24,832 nucleotides of DNA from a virus. Both the position numbers and the translations under genes were made by a program. The notes below the pieces were generated by a model. It saw only the letters and a list, made by a program, of their open reading frames with translations. It was not told where the DNA came from and searched no databases. Shown one piece after another: positions 1 through 20,950 of the stretch. Within the stretch, counting starts at the first letter, position 1, and each line of letters begins with the position of its first letter. The DNA lies in IMG/VR virus record IMGVR_UViG_3300032516_000191, positions 1 to 24,832 of that record; one strand, written 5' to 3'.

Positions 1-1200
1 GCCGGAATCAAAGGCAAGCCAACGAAAGTGCTGTCTGTTTTGCGCTCGTCAGGTCAGCCGCCCACTACCTTGCTGGCCGGAGCGCAGATCAACTCCGACG
101 GAGCCAATACACCGAACCTTGAGTTTATCTGCCAAGAACTGTATTGCTATGGAATGTTCTGCAACATTGGCGCAGTGGCCACAACAGCAAATATACTGTT
201 CGGGAATGGGGCCGCAACGGATTTTTTACAGACTTTCGAGAAGTGCAAATTCAATCTGAGATCAACGAATACAAATGTCTGTTTCATAAAGATCGGGCAA
301 TCGGCCACGAACAATGCTCCCGGTTTGTTCCGCTTCGTCAACACGGATTTCAAATTCGCCGATTCTTTTAACAGCTTATCCGTTTTTCAGGCCGGGGTGG
401 AGTGGACTGGTGGATCAATTATGTCTGGCAGTACTACGCCGACAGTTCTATTTCGAGATGAGACTGCCAATGGCCGCACGGCAACTATCAACGTATCTGG
501 GGTTAACCTGTCGAACCTTAGCTCGACTGTTAATTTGATTGGCGTCGGTTCGCGGCGCACGCTTGCGTCGATTCGAGATTGCAAACTGCCAGCGTCATGG
601 ACCGGCAGTCTGGTTAGTGGAACCATGTTTCAATCCGATTCTGTCGTCATGGATAATTCCGATGCGGCGAACACGAACTACCGCAAATGGCTTGAATCGT
701 TTTTCGGTTCGCTCAAGCACGAGACGACGATTGTGCGCACAGGCGGCGCAACTGACGGGACCACACCCCTTGCGTGGAAGATGGCGACCAACGCAAACGC
801 TGCTACACCCTCTGGTGTTCTTCTTTCAACCGAACGGGCGCAGTGGAACGAGCTTACAGGTAGCGCCAAGACCTTGACGGTTGAAATCGTCCACGATTCG
901 CAGGGCGCTGGTACAGGAGGACGCTTCCGTGATGATGAAATTTGGCTTGAGGTAATGGCGCTCGACACGGCGAGCTTCCCACTTGGTGGTTGGGTGTCCG
1001 ACAAGGCGTCCTCCCCGATGACGCCGCTCGATCAAACTGATAGCGCGGTAGCGTGGACGACAACGGGCCTCACCTCCCCGCTGAAGCAGGCGTTATCCGT
1101 GACCGTCACGCCGCAGGTTAAAGGCCACTTCATCTACCGGGTTGCGATGGCCTCACCCGGAAAAATTTGTTACGTTGACGCAATGATGACGGTGACGTAA
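1..1200 (+). CDS. Phage virion protein, probable beta-helix, 5' end outside window
   Basis: The reading frame is open from base 1, and the GTG at 28 has no ribosome site before it, so I treat the gene as cut by the left edge rather than starting at 28. The visible part is 399 codons. The first two thirds is rich in Asn, Ser, Thr and small hydrophobics with short alternating strands (for example FRFVNTDFKF, TINVSGVNLSNL), which looks like a parallel beta-helix of the kind used in phage tail fibres and spikes. The last ~130 residues (from TTIVRTGGATDG on) look like a separate beta-sandwich-type domain ending in KICYVDAMMTVT. No catalytic motif is recognised. It is followed without a gap by the repeat protein (TAATG junction at 1198-1202), so the two are probably co-translated. 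Phage structural role is inferred from context and composition; exact function unknown. Confidence 0.7.
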   Translation, partial: AGIKGKPTKVLSVLRSSGQPPTTLLAGAQINSDGANTPNLEFICQELYCYGMFCNIGAVATTANILFGNGAATDFLQTFEKCKFNLRSTNTNVCFIKIGQSATNNAPGLFRFVNTDFKFADSFNSLSVFQAGVEWTGGSIMSGSTTPTVLFRDETANGRTATINVSGVNLSNLSSTVNLIGVGSRRTLASIRDCKLPASWTGSLVSGTMFQSDSVVMDNSDAANTNYRKWLESFFGSLKHETTIVRTGGATDGTTPLAWKMATNANAATPSGVLLSTERAQWNELTGSAKTLTVEIVHDSQGAGTGGRFRDDEIWLEVMALDTASFPLGGWVSDKASSPMTPLDQTDSAVAWTTTGLTSPLKQALSVTVTPQVKGHFIYRVAMASPGKICYVDAMMTVT

Positions 1201-2441
1201 TGGCTACTCGTCAAGTCCAGATTCCGGGCGGGCTTGGCTATGACGAAACCGGAACGCAGCAAGGGCAAATACCCGGTGGTAGTGGATATGATGATACTGC
1301 GTCTGTAGTTGGTAATGTAACACTTGCGGGAATTGCGACTACCGCTTCTGGTGACACGCTTGTACCCGCGCTTGCCGTCACCCTCACTACCCAGTTAGCG
1401 ACAGTTTCGCAAGATACTCTTGCGGCTGGTGTAGGTGCGTCACTTACTACGCAGCTTGCCACTGCGTCGTCCGGTACGCTGGTGCCGTCGATTTCCGTTA
1501 CGTTGACGGGGCTGCAGGTGACGGCGCAGCAGCAGGCGCTTATTCCGGCGCTGGCAATCACCCTCACTACGCAGCTTGCCACTATGTCAGGTGGCACACT
1601 TGTACCCGCGCTTGCCATTACCCTAACGGGACAGCAGGCAACTGCTTCTGGTGGCACGATTCAAGTTCCGGTTACCCTAACGGGATTACAGACAACCGCT
1701 TCTGGGGGCACGCTTGTACCTGCGCTTGCCGTCACACTTACCACCCAGTTAGCGACAGTTTCGCAAGGTACTCTTGCGGCTGGTGTAGGAGCGTCACTCA
1801 CTACGCAGTTCGCCACTGCGTCAGGTGGCACGCTTGTACCCGCGCTTGCCGTTACCCTAACGGGACAGCAGGCAACTGCTTCTGGTGGCACGATTCAGGT
1901 TGGAGTTATCCTAACAGGGTTACAGGCAACTGCTTCTGGTGGCACGCTTGTACCCGCGCTTGCCGTTACCCCCACTACGCAGCTCGCCACAGTATCAAGA
2001 GGGGTGCTAGTTCCAGAGATTGCGCGGACGCTTACTACACTGCTGGCGACAACTTCGCGCGGGACTCTAACACCCCTAATCTCCATTCCTCTGACTGGGC
2101 AGCTTGTCACGGTATCAGGCGGCATTTTCCCATTCAACGATAAAACCGTCCCGCTGGTAGGCCAGCAAGTCACGGCTGCGGGCGGCGTACTTGTTCCGTC
2201 CCTCGCTGTCACCCTGACCACGCGGCTCGCCACAACCACTACTGGTGTGTTAATACCAGTAATTACGGTAGTGCTTACTGGGCAGGTAGCGATCGGGCAA
2301 CAGGGCACGCTTCTGCCCCCGCCCGGTACAGGCATAGGTGTTAACGATCTGTGGGTATTTAAGCAGGTTGAAGAACTTCTGGTGCGGACTACTAATGACC
2401 CACTCGTCGTACATACCGAAATTGAAGAACTGATCGCATAA
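1200..2441 (+). CDS. Repeat protein of seventeen ~20-residue units, phage virion associated
   Basis: This 413-residue protein is almost wholly repetitive. After a 39-residue head containing two Gly-rich motifs (QIPGGLGYDET, QIPGGSGYDDT), residues 40-378 divide into 17 units with the pattern VTLTGxxATASGGTLVPALA. Fifteen units are about 20 residues; units 6 and 10 have 18. Two flavours occur, LTGxQATASGG and LTTQLATVS. A 35-residue tail follows, with predicted helix (LWVFKQVEELL, EIEELIA). The regular Thr/Ser/Gly/Val pattern suggests a beta-solenoid or fibre. Similar LTGxxATASxGTL repeats are known to me from uncharacterised phage and metagenomic proteins; their function is not established. 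The start overlaps the preceding stop by one base (TAATG). The 1320-residue protein downstream carries the same repeat and a similar helical tail, so both may attach to the same virion part. Function inferred only. Confidence 0.8.
   Translation: MATRQVQIPGGLGYDETGTQQGQIPGGSGYDDTASVVGNVTLAGIATTASGDTLVPALAVTLTTQLATVSQDTLAAGVGASLTTQLATASSGTLVPSISVTLTGLQVTAQQQALIPALAITLTTQLATMSGGTLVPALAITLTGQQATASGGTIQVPVTLTGLQTTASGGTLVPALAVTLTTQLATVSQGTLAAGVGASLTTQFATASGGTLVPALAVTLTGQQATASGGTIQVGVILTGLQATASGGTLVPALAVTPTTQLATVSRGVLVPEIARTLTTLLATTSRGTLTPLISIPLTGQLVTVSGGIFPFNDKTVPLVGQQVTAAGGVLVPSLAVTLTTRLATTTTGVLIPVITVVLTGQVAIGQQGTLLPPPGTGIGVNDLWVFKQVEELLVRTTNDPLVVHTEIEELIA
1317..2333 (+). repeat. 17-unit tandem repeat, 60-nt period
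   Basis: In-frame tandem array coding residues 40-378 of the 413-residue protein. Most units are 60 nt, with two of 54 nt and two slightly longer near the end. Copies differ in age: bases 1581-1663 and 1815-1897, offset by 234 nt, match at 79 of 83 positions by eye. A second pair around 1391 and 1745, offset by 354 nt, is also close. Units near the 3' end are more divergent. This pattern points to recent duplication or gene conversion in the middle of the array. Confidence 0.9.
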
Positions 2442-2450
2442 GGAAACGAA

Positions 2451-3662
2451 ATGGCAAACTATGTCCAGCAATATCGTTCGACTGATGCAAACTCACCTGT
2501 GCTTTCCGGTACGGCTGGGTCACTGATCGCGCTGCTCGATGCGTGTCTGGTGAATGGCTACACCACGGCCTCGGTTACGTCGATTACAGAAGCCAGTACT
2601 ACCTACACCGTGATAATCGCGGTGGCGAACACTACGCTCGTTACTGGGGACAACGTGACCATTTCCGGGGCCAGTCCTGCTGGTGCCAATGGCACGTGGA
2701 AGATCACGGTTACGGATTCGACGCACTTCACCTATGTCGGACCCGGAGGGCTGGGTACGATCACCGGCACGATCCTGTACAAGAAGGCAGGTGCGCAGTG
2801 GACGAAGCCATTTACTGCGGCGAATCGCGCAGCGTTCTTGACAGGCGGCTCGGCTCCGTACACGAACATGTACATGCGTGTTGAGGAGGATGGGAATTCC
2901 GCAGGTGGACAGAAAGAAGCGGTGGTCACGGGCTTCGAAACAATGAGCGATGTGAATACAGGCGGTGCTCAATTTCCGACAAGCGCACAGGTTGCTATTA
3001 GTGGTACGGCAACGAAGGCTGGTGTGTTCTGGCGTAAGAGTACGACAGCGGATGCAACTGCACGCCCGTGGACGATTTTTGCGGATAATCGTTTTGTCTA
3101 TCTGCTCACTAATTCGGAAGCTTCACTTATTCTAGGGCGTTGTTGGCAAGCATTCGGTAGCTTCGAGTCGTACAAGACCAGCGATGCATACAACGTGTGC
3201 ATTTCTGGACCCTCAATTCCAGCCACTGCAACAGCGGCGATCTCGTCGAGTGGATTGATGGAGGTTGCTACTTGGAATGGTGGCTTAATAGGGGCGGGTT
3301 TTTATGTGGCGCGTACTTATGCGCAAACAGGGGGTTCTGTGCCGGTTAATTCCGTAACTGGTAATGCGCAAGCTTCAACTCTAGGAGGTACGGTAGGGTG
3401 GGGGATGCCATTTCCGAATGGACCTGACAGTGGTTTATGGGTAACACCGGTATTGGTTGCTGAATTTCCTACTTCAATTATGCATGTACGCGGGCGGTTA
3501 CCGGGGTTGTATTCCCACATGCATACAGGCATACCTGCGAATGAGTATGACACTGTGACTGGTGTTGTTGGTCTTTCTGGTGTCACTCTTACTGCTGTGC
3601 AGGCAATTACTACATCGGGTACTAACGCGATCAGTCTTGTCGATACATTTGGTCCGTGGTAA
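2451..3662 (+). CDS. Phage tail-type structural protein with FCCH-like insert
   Basis: A 403-residue protein starting at ATG 2451 after AAGGAAA. Its N-terminus (STDANSPVLSGTAGSLIALL) resembles a conserved start seen in hypothetical virion proteins of tailed phages. Residues ~44-108 (TYTVIIAVANTTLVTGDNV, then NGTWKITVTDSTHFTYV and TGTI) resemble the small all-beta domain annotated as E1-FCCH-like in many phage structural proteins. This segment interrupts what in relatives reads as a continuous N-terminal domain: it splits LLDACLVNGY from the later AGAQWTKPFTAANRAAF. The remaining ~290 residues are Gly/Ser/Thr-rich beta-type sequence with no recognised motif and no signal peptide or membrane segment. 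It lies between the repeat protein and a small regulatory-domain-like protein in the same transcription direction. Virion association is inferred from context and family resemblance; exact role unknown. Confidence 0.72.
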   Translation: MANYVQQYRSTDANSPVLSGTAGSLIALLDACLVNGYTTASVTSITEASTTYTVIIAVANTTLVTGDNVTISGASPAGANGTWKITVTDSTHFTYVGPGGLGTITGTILYKKAGAQWTKPFTAANRAAFLTGGSAPYTNMYMRVEEDGNSAGGQKEAVVTGFETMSDVNTGGAQFPTSAQVAISGTATKAGVFWRKSTTADATARPWTIFADNRFVYLLTNSEASLILGRCWQAFGSFESYKTSDAYNVCISGPSIPATATAAISSSGLMEVATWNGGLIGAGFYVARTYAQTGGSVPVNSVTGNAQASTLGGTVGWGMPFPNGPDSGLWVTPVLVAEFPTSIMHVRGRLPGLYSHMHTGIPANEYDTVTGVVGLSGVTLTAVQAITTSGTNAISLVDTFGPW

Positions 3663-3665
3663 ATC

Positions 3666-4070
3666 ATGGCGAATGTCACTCCCGGTAGACTTTGGCCGCA
3701 GTTTGGGCCAGTGCCTCTACATACTTCGCATGGTGTGTCTGGTGCTGGCCCGAAGCGGTTGAGTAAACCTTACCAGACTGCGCATGGTGTGGATGGAGTA
3801 GGACATCGTGCGTACGGTGGTTTGATTTGGGCTGCTACCAGTGGTGGTAAGAAGATTAGTGGGCGCACTTACTTTACTGGTGTACCTGCGAGTCGTCGGG
3901 TACTGCTCATCAAAGAGGGTCCACCTTCGTTCATCATCGGTGAGTTCGTTACGGAGGCGTATACGGGGAACTTCAATTTCATTGGTCTTGCCCCCGGTAA
4001 GTATATTGTGCTTGATCTTGATACTGCTAAACAGGGGATGATCTTCGATTTGGTGGTTGCAGGGCCGTGA
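3666..4070 (+). CDS. Small phage protein with carboxypeptidase-regulatory-like beta-sandwich
   Basis: A 134-residue protein beginning three bases after the previous stop. Residues ~1-55 contain Pro/Gly/His-rich sequence (TPGRLWPQFGP, then two similar stretches YQTAHGVDGVG and LHTSHGVSGAG). From residue ~62 it reads like a transthyretin/carboxypeptidase-regulatory-like fold: GRTYFTGVPASRRVLLI, then GEFVTEAYTGNFNFIGLAPG, then KYIVLDLDTAKQG. That order (strand, VPASRRV, xTGxFxFxGLxPGxY, FDLVV) is typical of small Ig-like domains added to phage tail and fibre proteins. No enzyme residues are seen. Its TGA overlaps the GTG start of the next, giant gene by four bases (GTGA), so the two are probably translationally coupled and may form part of the same structure. 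The role is inferred. Confidence 0.75.
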   Translation: MANVTPGRLWPQFGPVPLHTSHGVSGAGPKRLSKPYQTAHGVDGVGHRAYGGLIWAATSGGKKISGRTYFTGVPASRRVLLIKEGPPSFIIGEFVTEAYTGNFNFIGLAPGKYIVLDLDTAKQGMIFDLVVAGP

Positions 4071-7000
4071 GTTATACCCCGCCTGTTTATAACGCCGTCA
4101 ACTTCGACGACGTAAGCGGGACGTACACTCCTCCAGCGTATAACGCTGTCAATTTTGATGGTTCTGATCCCGGCAGCGTAATTCTTGCTGGGCAGACAAC
4201 GACCGTATCAAGCGGTACGTTGTTTCCGTCAATTGCAATAACTCCCGCAGGTATAGCAGCTACCGCATCTCCCGGTACGCTTGGGATTACGGTTGCGGTC
4301 GTACTGACCGGACTGCAAGCGTCCGCTGCGGTCGGCATACTTAGTGCTACCGTTAATGGTAATGCTACGGTTCCTTTAGTTGGATCGTCGGTAACTGCTT
4401 CTGGTGGCGTACTTGTACCTGCGCTTGCCGTCACCCTTACCACTCAGTTTGTAACAGTTTCTGGTGGTTTAATTTTCCCAACATTACAAGGTCTGCAGGT
4501 TGCAGTATCGGGGGGTACGTTAGTTCCTGTCATCACGCGTGCGTTGGTCGGACAGGCAGCGACGGTTACACAAGGCGTGTTATTCGGCGGGGTTAACGGT
4601 GATCTTGTCAGCATCGCTGCTGTAATAGCATACGGACCCTTAGTCCCAACTATTACGTTCGCGTTGACAGGTCTATCGGCGGCTGCTTCGGGGGGCACGC
4701 TTGTACCGACTGTTGCACCTGCTTTTGTTGGACTGCAGGCGACTGCTTCGGGTGGTGCGGTAGGTACGATAACGTACTTGACCGGTATAGCAGCAACAGT
4801 TTCTGGCGGTACGTTGGCAACGGATCGTCGATACGCTAATCCGATTATCTGGTCGTCATCTTCACACTTCAGTCTGAGTCGGTTTAATAATTCAACTGAC
4901 TCAAAGGATCGTACAGTTTATGGTTCGGTTGTTGGGCCGTTTGTTGGTATTGCTTCGTATGATGGCACTACCACGGGGTATCGCAAGGAAGGTAAGTGGT
5001 ATGTCGAATTTGTTGATCGTTATGGTAGTCCTGCATGGTATGCCGGGATTATAGACAGTTTCCGTGTGGTAAGTGGTGCGCATCTTGGTTTGCGTACTGC
5101 AGGTGGCGATGACCTAACGACGTGGGCGTTTGGGTTGTTGCCGTCAACTATTGTTACTACGCATGATGGCACCTCAACCGCGCAGGGTTCACATACAAGC
5201 GTAGCTGGCGATGTGGTCATGATGGCTATTGACCTAGATGCTGGCTTGGTTTGGTTTGGTCTTAATGGTACGTGGCTTGGTGGTGGGAATCCGTTTACAG
5301 GAGCGAATCCAACTTACACAGGTGTATCTAGTACGCATCCGATGACGCCCGCATCGTCTATCGGTAACGCGACATCTACGTTGAATGGGGTGTACATCCG
5401 TGCCGCATTGGATGCTATGACGTACACCATCCCCGGTGGCTTCCAGCCGTGGGAGACCAGCAATCTTAACAATACGAAAGCATTAACCGGGTTGTCAGCG
5501 ACAGTTTCTGGTGGTTTGGTTGGTGCATTCGAAGGTGTTGGCGTTCTTACGACGCTTGTTGCAACTGCTTCTGGCGGTACCCTAACCCCATTGATTCAGA
5601 TCACGGGAGTGCTTGTCGGTCAGTCGATGACTATACGGCAAGGGCCATTCGCAGTGATCTCTGCTGGTGCGAACAAGTCAGTACAACTTTACGGTCTCGC
5701 AGTTACCACATCAGTTGGTGTGTTTACTCCTACGGTTATTGTTGGTGCTACGGGAGCTGTCACTACCACACCTGCTGTTGTGCAAAGTACCTTTACTGGT
5801 GGTGGTGACGCATTTCCTCCAGCAGAAGCGTTTACGTGGGCGACAAAGAATAATTTTATTTCGTATGACGGGATGTTGCTTGGTGCGGGGGATACCGGGT
5901 ATCTCGATGTTTCTGCGAATTGGGCTGTGAAACGTGCGTTTGGCTATTCACTCGACCAGACGACACGCGGCAAGACATGGGGCCACACACCTTGGAGTAC
6001 TTCTACTTGGGATGCGCCGGGTGATGTTAACAGGTTCAACGCTTTCTTTGGTGGTATCGGGGATCATTTCGTAGCAGGCCAAGTCTACGATTTTTCGGGT
6101 CCTTCGTGGGGGCATGGTGGACAGTTTTCTGTTGACCTTGACGGTAACTTGGCATTTGTGCACATGCGAGGGTATGGGCTTGTTGCGGGGAGAAAAAATA
6201 CTACACCTGATTTAGTTTACTACCTGCAAGTTTCCGATCTGACACAAGTTGTGTGGCGACGCGATAACTTCGCGCTTGACGCCGCGCACGAGTTGTTGAT
6301 GGGTGTGTATGGGCACACCGCGAAGAATACGTTGGTGTTCTATCCATCGTTGAGTGGAACTGATTGGGTGCCGACTGTTCGACGGTGGGATGGAACTACG
6401 CTAAGTACAGCAACTCAACTTACTGGGTTTACTGGTAATGCTGCCTGTGACGCGGCCCACAAGTGTCTATGTGTGACTCGTGCGGGTTACGGTGACACGA
6501 TCTACGTCAGCTATTACAGCAGTACTGGGCATGTCGGCTTGATTGTGATGGACGCGGTGACGTTAAGTGTGACATCCCATGTGCTTACTGCCACAGTAGC
6601 AACTGGTAGTGTTTTTACCATACTCAGTTTTGGTGGGTTTGATCTTGCATCAGAACCGCCAACACGTTCGCTTGCTGAAGTTGTTTATCTAAATAGCGGC
6701 ACAAGCGTTACGCAGTTCTTGCTCAACCAACAGTTTGTCAGACTATCGTGGACGAGCGGCACTGCTACTACGCCCACGCAAACTCTCAAGACAGGACCAT
6801 CCTCATCTTATTTGGTTGGAGGTTGGGAGACGTTAGAAACGAAAGGTGAAGAAGTTGTTCATGTTCTTTATGAACGCACTGTTGTTTCGACTAACTACAA
6901 CAGTGGCACCGGAAGATACGACTACCTCCAAGACTTCAAAGTATTCGCAAACGATGCTACAGGAACAGGTAGTTCATGGACTGACAAGGGTGTGGTATGG

Positions 7001-8029
7001 AGTTGGACTGAATCATTCACTCTTAACCAACTTGATTACAAGGAAGCGATTTGGTTTTCCGGGTATGGCGGGGGGTTGCAATCTGTTCTGTATTCCGTTC
7101 CCCTACTTGCTGTAGGTAAGGGCGACAGTGAGACGCAGGCAAAACTTGCTTGGTTTGATTATTGGGCCAAGCAAGCACCATACATGTCGGTCAAGGCTAC
7201 AGGACGTGTTGGCCGTGTTTCCATTACCATCATCCCCGGCGTAGTTCTTGTAGGGTTACAAGCGACTGTTTCACCCGGCACGCTTACACCAAATATCGCT
7301 GTCACGCTGACGGGACTGTCTGCGACTGCTACAGGTGGCACCATCGCTGGCGTAATTCCGGTGGATGCCACGGTGCCGCTATTTGGGCTGTCGATGGCAG
7401 CGACGAGAGGTTCGCTTGTAGCGGGGGTGGGGGTTACCCTAACTGGTATAGCAGCGTCTGCAGTAGGCAGTACACTTATTCCGACCAACTCGCCTGCGCT
7501 TGTCAGCAATTCGTTAACGACTTCGAGGGGTACGCTGTTGCCGACGATTGCGGTTGCATTGATCGGGCTGCAGGCATCTGCGCAAGGTGGCGCGTTGGCG
7601 GTGACCTGTGGGGTCAACCTGACCGGACAATCACTCGCAGCCACTTCTGGTGTGATCGTACCAACACTGAGTGTGCGTCTGATCGGTGCACAGCTCCAGA
7701 CCGGCTACGGCATCTTCATCCCGCTCAATTCACCCTTGTTGACGGGAGCGGTCATGGCTGCGCTCGAAGGCAGCTTGCAGGTGGTCATGACGGTGCCGCT
7801 AGTCGGGCGACAGGCATCATTGGTTTCAGGAACCCTTGGTTTCTTATATGACTGTAATGTCTTTCCTCTCGGAGTCTACGCGCTCGGCGTGGTCAGCCCC
7901 GAACCGACATTGACCAACGTGCCGCCCATAGGGGAAAACCTGCAATTGTGGGCACGTGCAGAGGTGGAAAAACTTTTCGCGCAAGAGTCGTTTGGCGAAC
8001 TGTTCAACGATGTCGAACCCCCGGAGTAG
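4067..8029 (+). CDS. Giant multidomain virion protein: solenoid repeats interrupted by SPRY and a large unknown domain
   Basis: A 1320-residue protein starting at GTG 4067, four bases inside the preceding gene. Order of parts: residues 3-31, two copies of a TPPxYNAVNFD motif; ~39-250, about eleven repeats of the LTGLxATxSGGTLVPxxA type also found in the 413-residue protein; ~258-462, a SPRY-like domain (GKWYVEFVDR, the IDLDAGLVWFGLNGTW core, then GGFQPW); ~470-575, five more repeats; ~576-1050, an unrecognised ~480-residue domain rich in Trp, Tyr, Gly and Asp, possibly a propeller; ~1055-1255, ten more repeats; and a helical, acidic tail (LWARAEVEKLF to the end). SPRY domains bind proteins or glycans in other systems, so a receptor-binding or fibre role is plausible but not shown. 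No signal peptide, membrane segment or catalytic motif is seen. Confidence 0.78.
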   Translation: MSYTPPVYNAVNFDDVSGTYTPPAYNAVNFDGSDPGSVILAGQTTTVSSGTLFPSIAITPAGIAATASPGTLGITVAVVLTGLQASAAVGILSATVNGNATVPLVGSSVTASGGVLVPALAVTLTTQFVTVSGGLIFPTLQGLQVAVSGGTLVPVITRALVGQAATVTQGVLFGGVNGDLVSIAAVIAYGPLVPTITFALTGLSAAASGGTLVPTVAPAFVGLQATASGGAVGTITYLTGIAATVSGGTLATDRRYANPIIWSSSSHFSLSRFNNSTDSKDRTVYGSVVGPFVGIASYDGTTTGYRKEGKWYVEFVDRYGSPAWYAGIIDSFRVVSGAHLGLRTAGGDDLTTWAFGLLPSTIVTTHDGTSTAQGSHTSVAGDVVMMAIDLDAGLVWFGLNGTWLGGGNPFTGANPTYTGVSSTHPMTPASSIGNATSTLNGVYIRAALDAMTYTIPGGFQPWETSNLNNTKALTGLSATVSGGLVGAFEGVGVLTTLVATASGGTLTPLIQITGVLVGQSMTIRQGPFAVISAGANKSVQLYGLAVTTSVGVFTPTVIVGATGAVTTTPAVVQSTFTGGGDAFPPAEAFTWATKNNFISYDGMLLGAGDTGYLDVSANWAVKRAFGYSLDQTTRGKTWGHTPWSTSTWDAPGDVNRFNAFFGGIGDHFVAGQVYDFSGPSWGHGGQFSVDLDGNLAFVHMRGYGLVAGRKNTTPDLVYYLQVSDLTQVVWRRDNFALDAAHELLMGVYGHTAKNTLVFYPSLSGTDWVPTVRRWDGTTLSTATQLTGFTGNAACDAAHKCLCVTRAGYGDTIYVSYYSSTGHVGLIVMDAVTLSVTSHVLTATVATGSVFTILSFGGFDLASEPPTRSLAEVVYLNSGTSVTQFLLNQQFVRLSWTSGTATTPTQTLKTGPSSSYLVGGWETLETKGEEVVHVLYERTVVSTNYNSGTGRYDYLQDFKVFANDATGTGSSWTDKGVVWSWTESFTLNQLDYKEAIWFSGYGGGLQSVLYSVPLLAVGKGDSETQAKLAWFDYWAKQAPYMSVKATGRVGRVSITIIPGVVLVGLQATVSPGTLTPNIAVTLTGLSATATGGTIAGVIPVDATVPLFGLSMAATRGSLVAGVGVTLTGIAASAVGSTLIPTNSPALVSNSLTTSRGTLLPTIAVALIGLQASAQGGALAVTCGVNLTGQSLAATSGVIVPTLSVRLIGAQLQTGYGIFIPLNSPLLTGAVMAALEGSLQVVMTVPLVGRQASLVSGTLGFLYDCNVFPLGVYALGVVSPEPTLTNVPPIGENLQLWARAEVEKLFAQESFGELFNDVEPPE
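4181..4816 (+). repeat. First solenoid repeat block of the 1320-residue protein
   Basis: About eleven in-frame repeats (residues ~39-250) of the same consensus as the array at 1317-2333, but more diverged and less regular, with some units shortened or extended. Bases 4394-4461 match bases 1695-1762 of the upstream repeat gene at 58 of 68 positions by eye, so the two genes share ancestry at the DNA level. Boundaries are approximate. Confidence 0.75.
5475..5790 (+). repeat. Second, short solenoid repeat block
   Basis: About five in-frame degenerate repeats (ALTGLSATVSGG, VLTTLVATASGGTLTP, VLVGQSMTIRQG, VQLYGLAVTTSVGVFTP and one weaker copy) between the SPRY-like domain and the ~480-residue unknown domain. 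Boundaries are approximate. Confidence 0.65.
7229..7832 (+). repeat. Third solenoid repeat block
   Basis: About ten in-frame repeats (residues ~1055-1255), beginning VVLVGLQATVSPGTLTP and ending VPLVGRQASLVSGTLG, just before the helical C-terminal tail. Units are mostly 20 residues. They are more divergent from each other than those at 1317-2333. Confidence 0.7.
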
Positions 8030-9334: not shown

Positions 9335-9784
9335 ATGACTGTTCGTCTCTCCACTGGAATACGCAATGCAATGCTGGATGGTGGTACTGGCAAAGGTGTC
9401 AAGGGTTCGCTTGCTGCTGGTTTTATGGCGATCTTGACTGGCTCGCAGCCCGCCACGGCGGATGCTGCTGCCACGGGTACACTGCTGGGCACGGTCTCCG
9501 TCAACGGCGCTGGCACTGGCACCACGTTCGATGCTGCGGTTGCGGGGGTGCTATCCAAAGCGGCAGCGGAAGTGTGGCGCTTCACGGGCCTCGCTGCTGG
9601 AATCGCGGGCTGGTTCCGCTGCTACCCGGCAGGCGACACAATCACTAACATCTCCACAACGGCCACACGGATCGACGGTGCCACCGGCTCCAGTGGTGCG
9701 GATGTGAACCTTACCAACCTGAATATCGCGGTCAGTCAAGTGAACACAGTCGATACGTTCACGATCACACTGCCCACTGCGTAA
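9335..9784 (+). CDS. Small phage virion-associated protein, paralogue 1
   Basis: A 149-residue protein with ATG at 9335, two bases after the previous stop, and a GAAAGGACC ribosome site inside the end of the upstream gene. The sequence is Gly/Ala/Thr-rich with no hydrophobic segment or catalytic residue. Conserved-looking elements, in order, are VRLSTGIRNAML, ILTGSQPATADAAATGTLL, TTFDAAVAGVLSKAAAEVW, AGWFRCYPAGD, ATRIDGATGSSGADVNL and a C-terminal VDTFTITLP. These elements recur in hypothetical proteins of tailed phages, usually among virion genes. It is followed 11 bases later by a paralogue with the same order of elements, so this is one half of a tandem pair. Role in the particle is not known. 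Confidence 0.72.
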   Translation: MTVRLSTGIRNAMLDGGTGKGVKGSLAAGFMAILTGSQPATADAAATGTLLGTVSVNGAGTGTTFDAAVAGVLSKAAAEVWRFTGLAAGIAGWFRCYPAGDTITNISTTATRIDGATGSSGADVNLTNLNIAVSQVNTVDTFTITLPTA

Positions 9785-9795
9785 GGGGTTGAGTC

Positions 9796-10239
9796 ATGAC
9801 GATCAAAGTCAGTACGGGGTTGCGAAACAAGTTGATGGATACCAATCCATTCAAGACTATTTTCAACCTCGGCTTCATCAAGATTTATAATGGTACCGAA
9901 CCCGTTGATGCTGACGCGGTGATCTCGGGACCGACACTGATTCTGACGATCTCCAACAACAGCACGGGTACTGGCATTACATGGGAAGCAGCGGCAGTAG
10001 CGGGGGCGTGCTTGAAGAAAGCATCGGAGACGTGGAGCGGAGTTGCAAGCGCCACGTTGACGGCGAATTTCTTCCGGTTGGTTGCGGCGGGGGATGATGC
10101 TACCGCGTCTACTACGCAGGCGCGTGTACAGGGGGCGGTTGGTACTGCAGGCGCGGACCTGAATATGACTACCACTTCGTTGGTTAACACAACAACCTAT
10201 CCGGTAGACTCCTTCTCCGTCTCAGTCCCAACGTATTGA
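9796..10239 (+). CDS. Small phage virion-associated protein, paralogue 2
   Basis: A 147-residue protein colinear along its whole length with its upstream neighbour: IKVSTGLRNKLM for VRLSTGIRNAML, IYNGTEPVDADAVISG for ILTGSQPATADAAATG, CLKKASETWSG for VLSKAAAEVWR, ARVQGAVGTAGADLNM for TRIDGATGSSGADVNL, and VDSFSVSVP for VDTFTITLP. The DNA of the two genes has drifted, so the duplication is old. ATG 9796 follows GGGGTTGAGTC. The gene ends at TGA 10237-10239, just before a strong AGGAGG and the hairpin that precedes the next gene. Tandem copies can provide heteromeric subunits or independently varying variants; neither is shown here. Confidence 0.72.
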   Translation: MTIKVSTGLRNKLMDTNPFKTIFNLGFIKIYNGTEPVDADAVISGPTLILTISNNSTGTGITWEAAAVAGACLKKASETWSGVASATLTANFFRLVAAGDDATASTTQARVQGAVGTAGADLNMTTTSLVNTTTYPVDSFSVSVPTY

Positions 10240-10251
10240 CATGTCCGTGCG

Positions 10252-10257
10252 AGGAGG
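10252..10257 (+). promoter_or_regulatory. Strong Shine-Dalgarno separated from its start by a hairpin
   Basis: AGGAGG lies 32 bases before ATG 10290, too far for direct use. The stem-loop at 10260-10280 lies between them; if folded, only about 11 bases would separate ribosome site and start. An in-frame TTG at 10272 is a weaker alternative start. Confidence 0.5.
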
Positions 10258-10259
10258 GG

Positions 10260-10288
10260 GCCGGGCGAAACTTGCCCGGCTCTTTTTT
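10260..10288 (+). terminator. Rho-independent terminator-like hairpin inside the virion operon
   Basis: A perfect 7-bp GC stem, GCCGGGC (10260-10266) with GCCCGGC (10274-10280), a 7-base loop GAAACTT, then TCTTTTTT. It lies after the paralogue pair and one base before ATG 10290. It could stop or thin out transcription into the 962-residue gene, act as a translation-spacing hairpin, or both. No promoter is seen between it and the next gene. Confidence 0.8.
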
Positions 10289-10289
10289 C

Positions 10290-13178
10290 ATGAGCAACAG
10301 CTACAAATGGGATCGTAAGGAGAGAGAAGGCGCTGACTACCAGCGCGAGACGTTCACGCGTGTGCATGACCAGAATAAAAAAGAGTATGACCTGCAAAAA
10401 GATCGTAATGATTTATGGAATACGGGAGCGCGAAAACTACCAAGTACACGTCCGCTTCGTTTCTTCGAGACCATTACTGATCCAGCATTAGGTGTCTTTG
10501 CCAGCAACGCACGAGAGCAAGCACGTCATGCGTACCGTACACTTGGGTTACGCTCATGGCACCATCACTACACTATTGACATCGCGGATGTGACCATCGA
10601 CTTGCGCGGTCGGTCGGTGTTCATCAAGATCATCCCTCTCGATCAGTTCGAGTTTGAGTTCATGACAAGTGGCTATCCTGTCGTGACACAAGCTGTAGCG
10701 CAGGATGGTGTTGGCTTTCTCGCGTATCGGGGACTCTGTATTGGTGTTTCGGTTTCCGCGCTACACGGAGTTGTAACAGCACGCTCTCGGGTACGACTAA
10801 GGCGGCGTACGGCTGTGAGTCGTGCTGGTGATGACATATCACAGATCGGGCGCGGTTACATGGTCGGGATGCTTAGTGAACCAGTTGTATTGCCCGACGC
10901 ACGCATCGCATTTAGTCGCTGGCGTTACCCTCGCAATTTGTTTGAATCGTGGGCACCGCACCATGGACACACAGGCGTGCACTGGCGCGACACGCAGCGG
11001 GCTGAGAACAACAACCCCAACCTAGTTGTGCCGCAGCCTAATCCCGGTGGACTGCTACAACATTCATTGCGTGATGCTGGTATTGATGTGCCGTATGAGG
11101 ACAATACATCACGAGACGTACTTCGTGCTGCGTATATTCGTGGTGTTGCAGATTGGCCGCGTGCTGATGGCTTGCAGAAAGTAACTGACAATACATACGG
11201 CACACATGAATTTGCCATCTATGTTGACGCGTTCAACGTGTTCAACATATTCCCTACTGCTGCAATCGGGCCGCTCATACCGGGGAACCCGTACGGGCAG
11301 AATGTAGATGAGTTATACGTACAGCGTAAAACATTGACGTTTGGTGGGTGGGTGTATCGCCCCACTACAAAATTGAAAGATTATTTTTCAGTTATCCCAC
11401 CCAGCATAACCACTGCCGATCAGGCGTTGATGGACTTCCCCGAAATCGACTGGAAGTTCAACCATCTCGGGACCAAAGCCGCTGCCGTGGTGTACGAACG
11501 TGAGGACTTTACCAATGACACAACATACTGGGCGGCAGAGCAGGGTCCTACTCCGTTCACTGGCACCGACTTCACCAATCTTACACAGACGATGGGGGTC
11601 GGCAGCAGACACAATCTTGGTAAGTCTGTTGGGTATAACGAGACACGACACTTCGTTGCGACAGGGATTCTCGAAGTTACTATCTCGATAACAATTACCG
11701 GTCCTAATCTGGAGGACTACAACGCAACCGTTAATGTTGTGGAAAAACGTCGCCCTACCACTGCCACCCGGTGTGCGCTTGCCGTGGGGTACGTGTGGCA
11801 TGACTGTTTTACCAATAACAAAGATGCAGCAGGGAATCGAATTAAGTTAGCTTCAGCAGGTGATTTTGTAACTCTTGATGTCGAACGCTGGGGAAGTGGT
11901 GCGCAGTTCCCTGCATCATACGGACAGGATGAAGAGTCGTACGCACTCTCACGCAGAGCAAACATATTGTCCCTGCGCAATGTAGATACCGATCAGGAAT
12001 ATCTAAGCCTGAAATCAGCTCAAGTATTAGGCGTGGACTTCAACACGCTGTCCTTTGCGTTCATGGCAAACATCCTGTCGGAAAAGAATCACGGTGTATA
12101 CCCAACCAAGGCAGGGTATACGCCAGCGAACCCTACGACAAAACAGGACATGTACCGTTACGACTTCGCGGTGATGATCGTGCACAGCGGGTTAATTAAG
12201 GATTTCATTTTTCCTGAAACGATGGAGCCACAACGACGAGACGCAATCATCGCCAAGTATGCGGAGAGTGGTAGAACGTACGTAAATGCGAAGGCGCTGG
12301 AGACTCCAGCATGGATGTACGTACCCCTGCAGGGGTCTACTGGAATGGACGGGTGGAGCGATACCGGCATCAATAACTATCGCCGGTGGTGGGCATACAA
12401 CAACGGCTACAAGACGCTAAGTACGGGTGCGTACGATGCAAATATTGAAGGAAAGATATTCGGACTGTGGGGGCAGGAGATGGGTGACGACAACCACATG
12501 TTCGTCTGCACCAGTCCGCGTTGGGGGTGGAGCTGCTACAGCAGCGTAATTTGTAGCCACATGATGATGAACGCTGGTCATACGTTCTACGCACATCCGA
12601 ACGGAACGTGGACGTTCTACAGTGATTCATTCATCTACGATAACCAGATGATTCAACCGTCAGGTGGGTTAGCCCTGATCGTTAACACTATCGACTCGTA
12701 CGACCCTACAAAGTTGGAGCATGTAATCTTCGACAAGATTCACTTCGAAATGCGTCTTGCTTCGGGTGGCGCGCTCGGGAAAGCGGATCATTCTTTCGTG
12801 GGTCTGTATAATAAAGCAGTACGCTCGGCACTCGCAGCGCAAAAACTGGAAGAAAACATATTCCCCATCGAACGTGCCAACCAGATCGCTACCTTCACAA
12901 CAGAAGCGGTAGATTGGGGAACACCTATTAACGGCCTGACATATCTGAAAGTAGTTGCAACATGGGGGAGTAAGGTATGGCGGTACACTGAACATGGTGT
13001 ACAAGGTGGTACCTACTACAACGTGTTGTTGCCAGTCCAAGGCGGGTTGATCGGCTTGAACTTTGATTATGCAAATTGGGAAGAATCAGTTACTACCGAA
13101 TTACAAACTCCTTCGTACTCGACAGAACTACTACATATCCGGTTTTGTGATCCTATCGTGCTGTCCAAGGTACGATAA
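10290..13178 (+). CDS. Large orphan phage protein, likely virion component
   Basis: A 962-residue protein from ATG 10290 (MSNSYKWDRKEREG). A TTG at 10236 would overlap the previous stop, but its extra 18 residues are encoded by the terminator hairpin and read as non-protein-like, so I reject it. The N-terminal ~70 residues are charged and helical. The rest is mixed alpha/beta with many aromatic residues and no low-complexity repeat. Recognisable local patterns include a Cys/Trp/Met-rich stretch (RWGWSCYSSVICSHMMMNAG) near residue ~760 and NGTWTFYSDSFIYDNQMIQP just after it. I do not recognise the family. Position between virion genes, same strand, and size suggest a tail, fibre or baseplate component. 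No signal peptide, membrane helix, nuclease, lysin or ATPase motif is evident. Confidence 0.7.
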   Translation: MSNSYKWDRKEREGADYQRETFTRVHDQNKKEYDLQKDRNDLWNTGARKLPSTRPLRFFETITDPALGVFASNAREQARHAYRTLGLRSWHHHYTIDIADVTIDLRGRSVFIKIIPLDQFEFEFMTSGYPVVTQAVAQDGVGFLAYRGLCIGVSVSALHGVVTARSRVRLRRRTAVSRAGDDISQIGRGYMVGMLSEPVVLPDARIAFSRWRYPRNLFESWAPHHGHTGVHWRDTQRAENNNPNLVVPQPNPGGLLQHSLRDAGIDVPYEDNTSRDVLRAAYIRGVADWPRADGLQKVTDNTYGTHEFAIYVDAFNVFNIFPTAAIGPLIPGNPYGQNVDELYVQRKTLTFGGWVYRPTTKLKDYFSVIPPSITTADQALMDFPEIDWKFNHLGTKAAAVVYEREDFTNDTTYWAAEQGPTPFTGTDFTNLTQTMGVGSRHNLGKSVGYNETRHFVATGILEVTISITITGPNLEDYNATVNVVEKRRPTTATRCALAVGYVWHDCFTNNKDAAGNRIKLASAGDFVTLDVERWGSGAQFPASYGQDEESYALSRRANILSLRNVDTDQEYLSLKSAQVLGVDFNTLSFAFMANILSEKNHGVYPTKAGYTPANPTTKQDMYRYDFAVMIVHSGLIKDFIFPETMEPQRRDAIIAKYAESGRTYVNAKALETPAWMYVPLQGSTGMDGWSDTGINNYRRWWAYNNGYKTLSTGAYDANIEGKIFGLWGQEMGDDNHMFVCTSPRWGWSCYSSVICSHMMMNAGHTFYAHPNGTWTFYSDSFIYDNQMIQPSGGLALIVNTIDSYDPTKLEHVIFDKIHFEMRLASGGALGKADHSFVGLYNKAVRSALAAQKLEENIFPIERANQIATFTTEAVDWGTPINGLTYLKVVATWGSKVWRYTEHGVQGGTYYNVLLPVQGGLIGLNFDYANWEESVTTELQTPSYSTELLHIRFCDPIVLSKVR

Positions 13179-13193
13179 CCTAACGAGGTTGAC

Positions 13194-14327
13194 ATGCCCA
13201 TAACCGCAAACATTATCCTGCCAGCACTCAGTGCGCTAGGATCATCTGGCAAGAAATATGGTGCCAGCGGGAACACTAAGACACCGTTACGTTTGCCGTA
13301 CATGCGGGCGTCGGGTGCGGCGTACTACCATGCTAATGGTGCGTTAGTTATTGGTTCGCAGGTAAGGATCGCGGGGACGATGCTGCTTGGCGAGTTGATG
13401 GGCGGCAACCTCACGCTTGAGTACCTGATCGTTGCAGGCGGAAGTGGTGCGGGAGGTGCGCTCACGCTGGAGCAAGTAACTGCTACTGGGACTGGCACAG
13501 TCACGCCGTGGGCCAACGGTGCTTTGGTGCTGAAACAAGTGTTGATTGCGGGGAGCGGAATAGCAGGAGTTGTAGCTACTGGCAAGTTGACCCTGCCTAA
13601 TGCAACAACCGACATGCGTATCGGTTCGCATGGTGAGCTGGTACTTTCCCCAGCCACCACGGCAGGATCAGTCTCGACGATGGAGGGGACGACCGGAGTA
13701 CTCCGTCTGCCGTTCGCAGTCGTTACTGGTAACATATCAATATTCAGTCTGCCGGGGGGTGGGAACCTCGTCCTTCTCCCCGTCATCGCCGGGCCGTATG
13801 GTATTGGACGGCTCACATTGCCATACCTGATTGTCTCCGGGGGGCAGGCGCTCACCACGACCGACTTCGAAGGATGGCTGATGAACGTGCGCAACAAGGG
13901 GGTCACTCGATTCACCGCCTTCCCCTTCACGCAGTTCGCCACGGTCAACAACAAGACCTATGCCATCGGCAGCGGTGGGCTATACCTGCTGGGTGGTAAC
14001 ACTGACAACGGTAACCCGATTGTGTGGCAGTTCGAGACTGGATTGAGTGACTTCGGCAGGCCGGGACTTAAACATCTCCCGTATCTATACCTAGACGGTA
14101 TAATTGACGGCGAGGTTGAGATTGTGCTGATCGACGACCGGAGACGTGAGTTCGCGTATCACTACGATACTAAGCAACGTGGTGCTGTGCACTTGAAGCA
14201 CCGCCGGAAACTGGGTAATGGTATTCGCACAACCAACGCAGCATTCCGAATCAAAAGCGATACGGGTGCGTACATAGAACTTGACGCACTCGAACCCGAA
14301 GTGACTATCACGCAAAGGAGCATCTAA
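13194..14327 (+). CDS. Phage tail-type protein: GxLxLP repeat region plus conserved C-terminal domain
   Basis: A 377-residue protein; ATG 13194 follows ACGAGGTTGAC. Residues ~45-225 are about nine loose repeats of 17-22 residues, each centred on a GxLxLPxxxxxG motif (GALVIGSQV, GNLTLEYLIVAG, GALTLEQV, GALVLKQVLIAG, GKLTLPNA, GELVLSPA, GVLRLPFAVVTG, GRLTLPYLIVSGG), probably a beta-solenoid. This is a different repeat from the one in the 413- and 1320-residue proteins. From ~225 a conserved phage domain follows: WLMNVRNKGVTRFTAFPF, YAIGSGGLYLLGGNTDNG, TGLSDFGRPGLKHLPYLYL, then KLGNGIRTTNAAFRI and a final AYIELDALEPEVTITQR. That C-terminal order is familiar from uncharacterised tail proteins of tailed phages. 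The stop overlaps the next start by one base (TAATG at 14325-14329), indicating coupled translation. Confidence 0.75.
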   Translation: MPITANIILPALSALGSSGKKYGASGNTKTPLRLPYMRASGAAYYHANGALVIGSQVRIAGTMLLGELMGGNLTLEYLIVAGGSGAGGALTLEQVTATGTGTVTPWANGALVLKQVLIAGSGIAGVVATGKLTLPNATTDMRIGSHGELVLSPATTAGSVSTMEGTTGVLRLPFAVVTGNISIFSLPGGGNLVLLPVIAGPYGIGRLTLPYLIVSGGQALTTTDFEGWLMNVRNKGVTRFTAFPFTQFATVNNKTYAIGSGGLYLLGGNTDNGNPIVWQFETGLSDFGRPGLKHLPYLYLDGIIDGEVEIVLIDDRRREFAYHYDTKQRGAVHLKHRRKLGNGIRTTNAAFRIKSDTGAYIELDALEPEVTITQRSI

Positions 14328-19816: not shown

Positions 19817-20950
19817 TTAGTCCACCCACTCCTCAACCAGATTGTCGAGGCCGTTCCCAGCAGCCTTCTTCTTACCCTTGACAGCGGGCGCGGGTTCATC
19901 TTCCTCGACCGGCGCGGCTTTCTTCTTCGCCTTGACGGCGGGCGCGGGCGCTTCGTCATCTTCCTCGACCGGCGCGGCTTTCTTCTTCGCCTTGACAGCA
20001 GGCGCGGGCGCTTCGTCATCTTCCTCGACCGGCGCGGCCTTCTTCTTTTTGGTGACGGCAGGCGCAGGCGGCGTATCGTCATCGTCGTACACCTCTTCCA
20101 CAGGCGCTGCTTTCGTCTTGGCCTTCACAGCGGGCATCGGATCGGCGTCATCATCATCATCCTTCGGCTTCTCCGCACGTGCAGCAAGCGAAGTCTCGGG
20201 TGCTTTCAGAAGTGCTTGGACAGCGGCATCCTTGAACAGCGGCTTGACAGTAGCCAACTCCTCATCAACCAACCAGCGTGATGCCGCGAACAGGAGCTTC
20301 GGATACGCCACGCGCGAATCGAACCGGACCTTGGTAGCGACATACCCTGTATGCGTCGCGCCGCGTTTCCGCAGCTCGTCCAGATACTGATCCCACGCGT
20401 AGTAGCCTTTGGCCTCGTTCTCCTCGTTGTTCTTGTCCCACATCGAGGTCTGCGCCAGCCGCAGTAGCAGCGGTACCGTATGCTCTGTACCCAAGTTCGA
20501 CAGTGGCACGATGGCGATCCGCTTGAATACTGAACACGCCGTGACTTCCTTGCCTTGTGGCGTGATCTTGCTGCCCTTCACTGACTGCGGGCAGCTCGCA
20601 CATGACTTCGCCTGCGGCTGCTTCACCGATGCATCGGGGTAGTCACCATCAGACGACCAGCATGCCGGGGCCTGCGCCTTGCCTTCTTCGTACGCGCCTT
20701 CGTAGTAGCTACGCGAACGAGCCTTGTTGTGATCGAGCACCACAACATGCACGGTGCTGACTGGCTCATCTTCAGCGTTCATCAGCGGTGTCTCTTCACC
20801 ATCAATGACGGTGCGCCACACCTTGCCTCGGAACGAGAGCTGCGGGACGTTGAGCTTCGGGGCGATATTCTCGACCCCCTCTTCGATAGCCTGCTGGATG
20901 TGTGCCGGGATGTTCTTGCTTTGGTAAAACGATACGATTTGTGTGGTCAT
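19817..20950 (-). CDS. SSB-like phage protein with repetitive acidic/basic tail
   Basis: A 377-residue protein. Residues ~1-250 form the conserved part: LSFRGKVWRTVIDGEETPL, then KAQAPACWSSDGDYPDASVK, then a Cys cluster (C97, C117, C120, C139) in SCASCPQSVKGSKI and EVTACSVFKRIAIVP, likely a zinc ribbon. This pattern is common in hypothetical phage proteins encoded beside replication genes. The C-terminal ~115 residues are low complexity: several near-repeats of KKKAAPVEEDDEAPAPAVKA, ending in a short acidic/hydrophobic tip (NLVEEWVD). An acidic tip is typical of single-stranded DNA-binding proteins, where it recruits partners, so I propose an SSB-like role; this is inference. It begins two bases after the exonuclease stop. 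The fold and DNA binding are not proven by sequence alone. Confidence 0.68.
   Translation of the reverse strand: MTTQIVSFYQSKNIPAHIQQAIEEGVENIAPKLNVPQLSFRGKVWRTVIDGEETPLMNAEDEPVSTVHVVVLDHNKARSRSYYEGAYEEGKAQAPACWSSDGDYPDASVKQPQAKSCASCPQSVKGSKITPQGKEVTACSVFKRIAIVPLSNLGTEHTVPLLLRLAQTSMWDKNNEENEAKGYYAWDQYLDELRKRGATHTGYVATKVRFDSRVAYPKLLFAASRWLVDEELATVKPLFKDAAVQALLKAPETSLAARAEKPKDDDDDADPMPAVKAKTKAAPVEEVYDDDDTPPAPAVTKKKKAAPVEEDDEAPAPAVKAKKKAAPVEEDDEAPAPAVKAKKKAAPVEEDEPAPAVKGKKKAAGNGLDNLVEEWVD
19859..20118 (-). repeat. 60-nt tandem repeats coding the Lys-Ala/Asp-Glu tail
   Basis: Two units (19921-19980 and 19981-20040) are almost identical over exactly 60 bases, with partial, more diverged units on each side. 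They code the 20-residue unit KKKAAPVEEDDEAPAPAVKA. The high DNA identity of the central copies suggests recent slippage or unequal recombination; repeat number may vary between related phages. Confidence 0.88.

Follow-up and report, generated by a model that had tools for sequence, protein, structure and literature searches.

The window, a stretch of viral DNA of 24,832 nucleotides (IMG/VR record IMGVR_UViG_3300032516_000191, positions 1-24,832), carries two neighbouring genes, here designated A and B, whose translated protein products (413 and 1320 amino acids, respectively) contain one common 20-residue repeat. The ATG of gene A shares one nucleotide with the upstream stop codon (TAATG), and the stop codon of the gene at 3666-4070 overlaps the GTG start of gene B. 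The features of both genes, and of the two repeat-free genes between them, are given in Table 1.

Table 1. Features of the repeat locus, with their positions in the window
Feature	Position	Strand	Basis
Gene A, 413-aa repeat protein	1200..2441	+	ORF, unit profile
A N-terminus, short motif twice: QIPGGLGYDETG / QIPGGSGYDDTA	1200..1316	+	Sequence
A repeat array, 17 units of 20 residues (aa 40-376)	1317..2327	+	Unit profile
A C-terminal tail, predicted helices, kept in the L171 orthologue	2328..2438	+	AlphaFold, alignment
phrog_9998/9600 tail-assembly-like protein, no repeat, between A and B	2451..3662	+	PHROG, 8P match
134-aa protein, no repeat, weakly homologous to 8P_015 (its C-terminal part, by eye)	3666..4070	+	Sequence comparison
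Gene B, 1320-aa modular repeat protein, GTG start	4067..8029	+	ORF, unit profile, L171 comparison
B N-terminus, YTPPxYNAVNFD motif duplicated	4067..4177	+	Sequence comparison
B repeat block 1 (aa 38-255)	4178..4831	+	Unit profile
B SPRY domain (aa 338-432)	5078..5362	+	Pfam PF00622, region scan
B repeat block 2 (aa 471-558)	5477..5740	+	Unit profile
B middle domain, ~500 aa, without family match	5741..7240	+	Family scan, L171 alignment
B repeat block 3 (aa 1059-1262)	7241..7852	+	Unit profile
B C-terminal cap and acidic tail	7853..8026	+	L171 alignment

The repeat unit and the architecture of A and B

The in-register units detected in gene A with an iterated unit profile comprise 82% of the protein, in agreement with an earlier, sequence-only reading which described it as consisting almost wholly of seventeen repeats. 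The units are spaced 20 residues apart, with exceptions of 18, 18 and 21. In gene B, 21 units scoring 18-39 bits are distributed over three blocks, and a single weak unit is located at residue 514. Degenerate stretches at 178, 1203 and 1223 keep the 20-residue register by eye and score below 0, giving a total of ~25 units (21 strong, one weak and three degenerate); the earlier estimate of about twenty-six differs from this only slightly. Shuffled versions of B (200 shuffles) contained a mean of 0.025 units and a maximum of one. The previously proposed consensus VTLTGxxATASGGTLVPALA is correct; the unit can be written VTLTGxxATxSGGTLxPxxx, with positions L3, G5 and G13 strongly conserved. At the protein level, units share on average 48% identity within A and 36% within B, compared with 38% between the two proteins; at the DNA level, the means are 53% for A and 45% for B. 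As a consequence of this divergence at the DNA level, TRF detected no tandem array in the repeat region of A or B. Gene A also contains a recent segmental duplication of ~200 nt (spacing: 234 nt; identity: 87%). The array is rich in Thr, Gly, Ala, Leu and Val, and the 337 residues of the A array include nine charged and three aromatic residues and no cysteine.

The sequence-only reading recognized the repeats in both proteins, but overlooked the SPRY domain and the ~500-residue middle domain of B, as well as the short tandem motifs at the N-termini of A and B. The duplicated motif in A has the general form QIPGGxGYDxT, and the YTPPxYNAVNFD-type motif of B is also found at the N-terminus of the B orthologue of a relative, L171, and, by eye, of 8P_016 of Pseudomonas phage 8P. 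The excised SPRY region scores 28.0 bits against PF00622, above the gathering cut-off of 26.3, and 24.4 bits, below the cut-off, in the context of the whole protein. An IMG/VR search with this region yielded four SPRY proteins without fused repeats, of which that of L165 adjoins a short repeat gene. In L165 (2471-7308), a phrog_644-like gene, a gene for a short repeat protein and a gene for a SPRY-related/DUF7483 protein are separate neighbours, whereas SPRY and repeats are fused in B of the window. No relatives of the B middle domain were found in IMG/VR, and no binding domain could be recognized in A.

The last 40 residues are net acidic in both A (seven acidic, two basic) and B (eight acidic, two basic), and AlphaFold predicts helices in the A tail at residues 381-396 and 401-412 (pLDDT 63-76). 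The description of both proteins as ending in a short helical, acidic tail therefore holds for the acidity of both and, as a prediction, for the helices of A. The A tail aligns with that of its L171 orthologue over 33 ungapped residues (score: 51; 0/2000 shuffles), and the similarity between the A and B tails is marginal (p 0.015-0.017). The tail of A is thus clearly kept in its orthologue, but an anchor common to A and B, as had been proposed, is a weak candidate given the marginal similarity of the two tails.

The virion module and the relative L171

The window genes w2451, w3666, w8076, w13194 and w14327 match 8P_014, 015, 017, 020 and 021, respectively. Gene order is the same in both phages, with B standing at the position of 8P_016 (1332 aa). 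Matches were likewise obtained in phage KPP25 for w8076 (ORF008), w9335/9796 (ORF006), w13194 (ORF005) and w14327 (ORF003), all four KPP25 products carrying the label 'structural protein', which is depositor annotation in AB910393. Furthermore, w9335 (9335-9784) matches chain B of PDB entry 44nx, a 'Structural protein' (E-value: 3e-21), to which KPP25 ORF006 is identical over the 116 residues compared. The homologous neck and tail genes in the same order place the locus in a virion module of the 8P/KPP25 kind of podovirus, and the assignment to a virion cluster in the sequence-only reading is supported by this synteny and by the match to the solved KPP25 protein. KPP25 is a podovirus according to the title of Miyata et al. 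2014, as it appears in the reference list of PMC13340246. As the window is a fragment, the podovirus morphotype of its phage is taken from these relatives. By this context, A and B are presumably present in the virion. A weak match of KPP25 ORF016 to A (E-value: 1.5e-4 in a 13-protein set) was discarded as probably compositional.

Several further genes of the window were characterized. The genes at 9335-9784 and 9796-10239 are tandem paralogues of phrog_3758. The product of 10236-13178 (980 aa), which matches nothing in PHROG or the PDB and nothing significantly in Pfam, is strongly conserved in L171 (E-value: 2e-172). Another repetitive virion-cluster protein is encoded at 13194-14327, with an N-terminal unit of ~20 residues (G-x-L-x-L-P/E) which differs from the LTG repeat; its C-terminal domain matches phrog_26502 (virion structural protein). 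On the minus strand, the gene at 19817-20950 specifies, close to the C-terminus of its product, a tandem repeat of 20 residues (Lys/Ala/Pro/acidic) that has no relation to the LTG unit, the array (19866-20070) consisting of 60-nt units which are ~90% identical.

The A/B pair is present in the same gene order in L171, a distant relative, which is the 33.7-kb contig behind locus L099. Its A protein comprises 283 aa with eight units (17 in the window) and its B protein 1367 aa with 20 units, with repeats at both ends (~25 in the window). The phrog_9998 and 134-aa homologues occur in the window order, as do homologues of w8076 (E-value: 1e-132), w9335 (3e-60) and w10236 (2e-172). The two B proteins are alike at the N-terminus, in a section of the middle domain (33% identity over aa 777-1058 of B) and in a C-terminal stretch, where 254 residues of B (aa 1059-1312) align with the C-terminus of the L171 protein. 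No SPRY match was obtained in the L171 B protein, which harbors a different insert of ~220 residues in its C-terminal repeats. As observed in these two phages, kept ends and middle domain, a varying number of repeats and a swapped insert form the pattern that would be expected if a stalk bore anchors and heads that can be exchanged. That B may bind a receptor is suggested by its SPRY domain and by the inserts, which differ between the relatives. A search through two conserved neighbours recovered the L171 contig and one contig which starts after B, and no third carrier of the A/B pair.

Distribution and gene context of the repeat among phages

A one-unit DNA pattern matched at least 120 loci in IMG/VR; among the matches listed, 118 of 120 are multi-unit proteins by the window repeat profile, 72 of which were retained after removal of near-duplicates. 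This very wide spread in IMG/VR had been overlooked by the sequence-only reading. Unit spacing across the loci is 20, sometimes 21-22, with exceptions of 16-24, and a variant LTT pattern retrieved two true loci only. A two-unit pattern, present in 70 of the 120 viral loci among the matches listed, gave 20 matches across 257 Gb of genome sequence from bacteria and archaea, none of them repeat proteins by profile and several of them TsaD-like. A six-unit profile had no match in a sample of 398 genomes of one bacterial phylum and matched 19/19 carrier virus records, the latter being a control of sensitivity and not a measure of spread, as most of these records built the profile or were picked by the repeat. 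Since neither search recovered repeat proteins in the genomes sampled, the repeat is likely absent from prophages. It is possible, if doubtful, that the LTG repeat is phage-specific, occurs rarely or never in prophages, and serves across unrelated lineages as an interchangeable stalk of adjustable length, connecting lineage-specific virion anchors to exchangeable host-contact domains.

In A, no convincing model from Pfam, PHROG or NCBIfam extends over the array; the families found among 61 relatives and B correspond to non-repeat domains or match in one to a few members. The lack of a family model supports the sequence-only reading, to which the repeat appeared undescribed. An LRR_11 match of A was rejected as far below the cut-off. 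The array gave no sequence match in the PDB, and tblastn searches of INPHARED with A, consensus repeats and the repeats of relatives returned nothing or non-repeat domains only, the array probably being hidden by low-complexity masking. The 303 mostly cyanophage records matched by L071 were rejected as carriers, as the matches listed start in its N-terminal cupredoxin-like part and not in the repeats; five of the records, examined with an HMM, contained no units. No paper was found in a text search of PMC with repeat peptides.

A phrog_644/3758-like gene (~150 aa) is located directly upstream of the repeat gene in 50 of the 72 non-redundant loci, among the matches listed, and 48 of 127 neighbours match phrog_644 independently. 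This ~150-aa gene is a candidate functional partner of the repeat gene. Depending on the phage group, the repeat gene is located in the head or the tail cluster. In L052 the order is terminase - portal - ... - repeat - scaffold - major head, and in L035 the repeat gene is likewise followed by scaffold and major head genes, while it follows the portal gene in L020 and lies near the major head gene in L060 and L033. The C-termini of the repeat proteins vary by lineage, consisting of W-x-x-I/DxQ repeats, TGSNTSY repeats, or an acidic followed by a leucine-rich stretch. The last form, an acidic stretch and a short leucine-rich C-terminus, is found in L012, L030, L033, L035, L045 and L052, e.g. DDEDESEIEWLVLMAL; in its strict form, it occurs in four repeat proteins and 8/2842 open reading frames overall.

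In several contigs, T7-like and other (L052, L035 and L060), the repeat gene adjoins scaffold and major head genes in the head cluster. This would be expected if the proteins decorate the capsid or neck as rods, which would confer stability or a weak, non-specific adhesion and would bind no specific receptor, and the nearly uncharged array and the lack of a recognizable binding domain in A are consistent with this. We consider it unlikely, however, in view of the SPRY domain of B, the location of B in the distal, tail-assembly-like part of the module and the tail genes adjoining the repeat gene in the marine podoviruses HTVC027P and CRP-345. The location of some relatives directly ahead of the scaffold gene, and the acidic, leucine-rich or coiled C-termini of some (L045, L052, L035 and L030), could also point to internal, ejected or scaffold-like assembly proteins, which would not remain exposed on the virion. 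The SPRY domain of B, the absence of a match to an ejection-protein family and a beta-rich repeat unlike helical ejection proteins make such a role very improbable.

Predicted structure, proposed function and comparison with known systems

The AlphaFold2 model of A (26 alignment rows; pLDDT 63; pTM 0.52) contains one strand of ~10 residues per unit, with ten-residue blocks at pLDDT 64-86 between residues 60 and 210, and six registered units (54 rows) were modelled at pLDDT 55 and pTM 0.42. The repeated beta structure proposed in the sequence-only reading is thus seen, at low confidence, as one strand per unit. The structure prediction which that reading had called for gave this regular strand, but the models are of low pLDDT (63 and 55), and Foldseek searches of the PDB yielded no significant match for them. 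The neighbours of the six-unit model are mostly beta-solenoids (E-value: 0.68 or worse), and a beta-solenoid fold of the array is plausible. The best of these non-significant neighbours of the array are ice-binding DUF3494 proteins, tapirin, bactofilin and TPS adhesins, which have no sequence relation to it. An ice-binding role, considered on account of TxT pairs in A and the DUF3494 neighbours, was rejected, as the relatives have VALT and none of the matches is significant.

Phage fibres are usually trimers, and the repeat may form a trimeric beta-fibre resembling a triple beta-helix or spiral, as opposed to a monomeric solenoid. Prediction as a monomer would then be poor by nature, in keeping with models of low confidence despite a registered alignment of 54 rows. 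The adenovirus-type triple beta-spiral has a 15-residue repeat, however, and with a period of 20 in the window and no sequence relative in the PDB, we regard a trimeric fibre as quite unlikely. Weak structure prediction and a composition rich in Thr, Ala, Gly, Leu and Val could also reflect low-complexity drift without specific structure or function. This we find scarcely credible, as the unit length stays at 20 across diverged loci with strong conservation of L3, G5 and G13, synteny of the gene extends to a distant relative, and shuffling of B leaves almost no units.

On balance we lean towards A and B being virion structural proteins of a podovirus-like phage, in which the repeat rod acts as an adjustable spacer or stalk and B carries host-contact domains. 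Most likely, the repeat provides the virus particle with a stiff spacer or stalk. The 20-residue units would stack into an elongated, almost uncharged beta rod, the length of which could be adjusted, with the non-repeat ends providing attachment and a cap. The rod of B would be interrupted by the SPRY domain and the ~500-residue domain, which would be placed at its tip or on its shaft and may contact the host surface, and A would represent a plain rod of the same material. The rod fold, its oligomeric state and the binding of a host surface are what we infer; the literature search found no virion mass spectrometry or proteome of a repeat carrier.

The repeat, present in more than 100 environmental phage genes, is missing from the standard family libraries, as a result of which its carriers remain 'hypothetical'; in routine searches they are probably also masked by low-complexity filters. 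With a unit profile, annotators could recognize these probable virion appendages of environmental phages as a whole class, and the repeat represents a compact target for structure determination, possibly with a new beta fold. It is best read as an undescribed family of a familiar kind, its carrier being a modular virion stalk protein.

Among characterized phages, 8P_016 resembles B in its slot in the syntenic module, its length, its repetitive nature and, by eye, an N-terminal YxPPxxxxVxxD motif, but its repeat is PxGIDaxxFGxPxV, and neither B nor the window repeat profile matches the protein significantly. The SPRY/B30.2 protein of Curvibacter phage PCA1 and gp24 of MMDA13, both with a SPRY-type annotation immediately downstream of a phrog_9998 homologue, recall B; unlike in B, no window-type units were detected in these SPRY regions. 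Tandem LTGxxATxxxGxV-type units like those of the window are found in gp68 of the Pelagibacter phage HTVC027P, gp55 of the Roseobacter phage CRP-345 and WJZ48131.1 of DSL-LC04, each annotated only as 'hypothetical protein'. Their C-terminal tails differ from those of the window proteins, and in HTVC027P and DSL-LC04 the units are interspersed with WG motifs, unlike in the window. Of the three, CRP-345 gp55 alone is significant with the window repeat profile (E-value: 5e-4). All three show the same gene pair as the environmental loci, the repeat gene being located directly downstream of a phrog_644-like gene (~145 aa) and near coat and tail genes.
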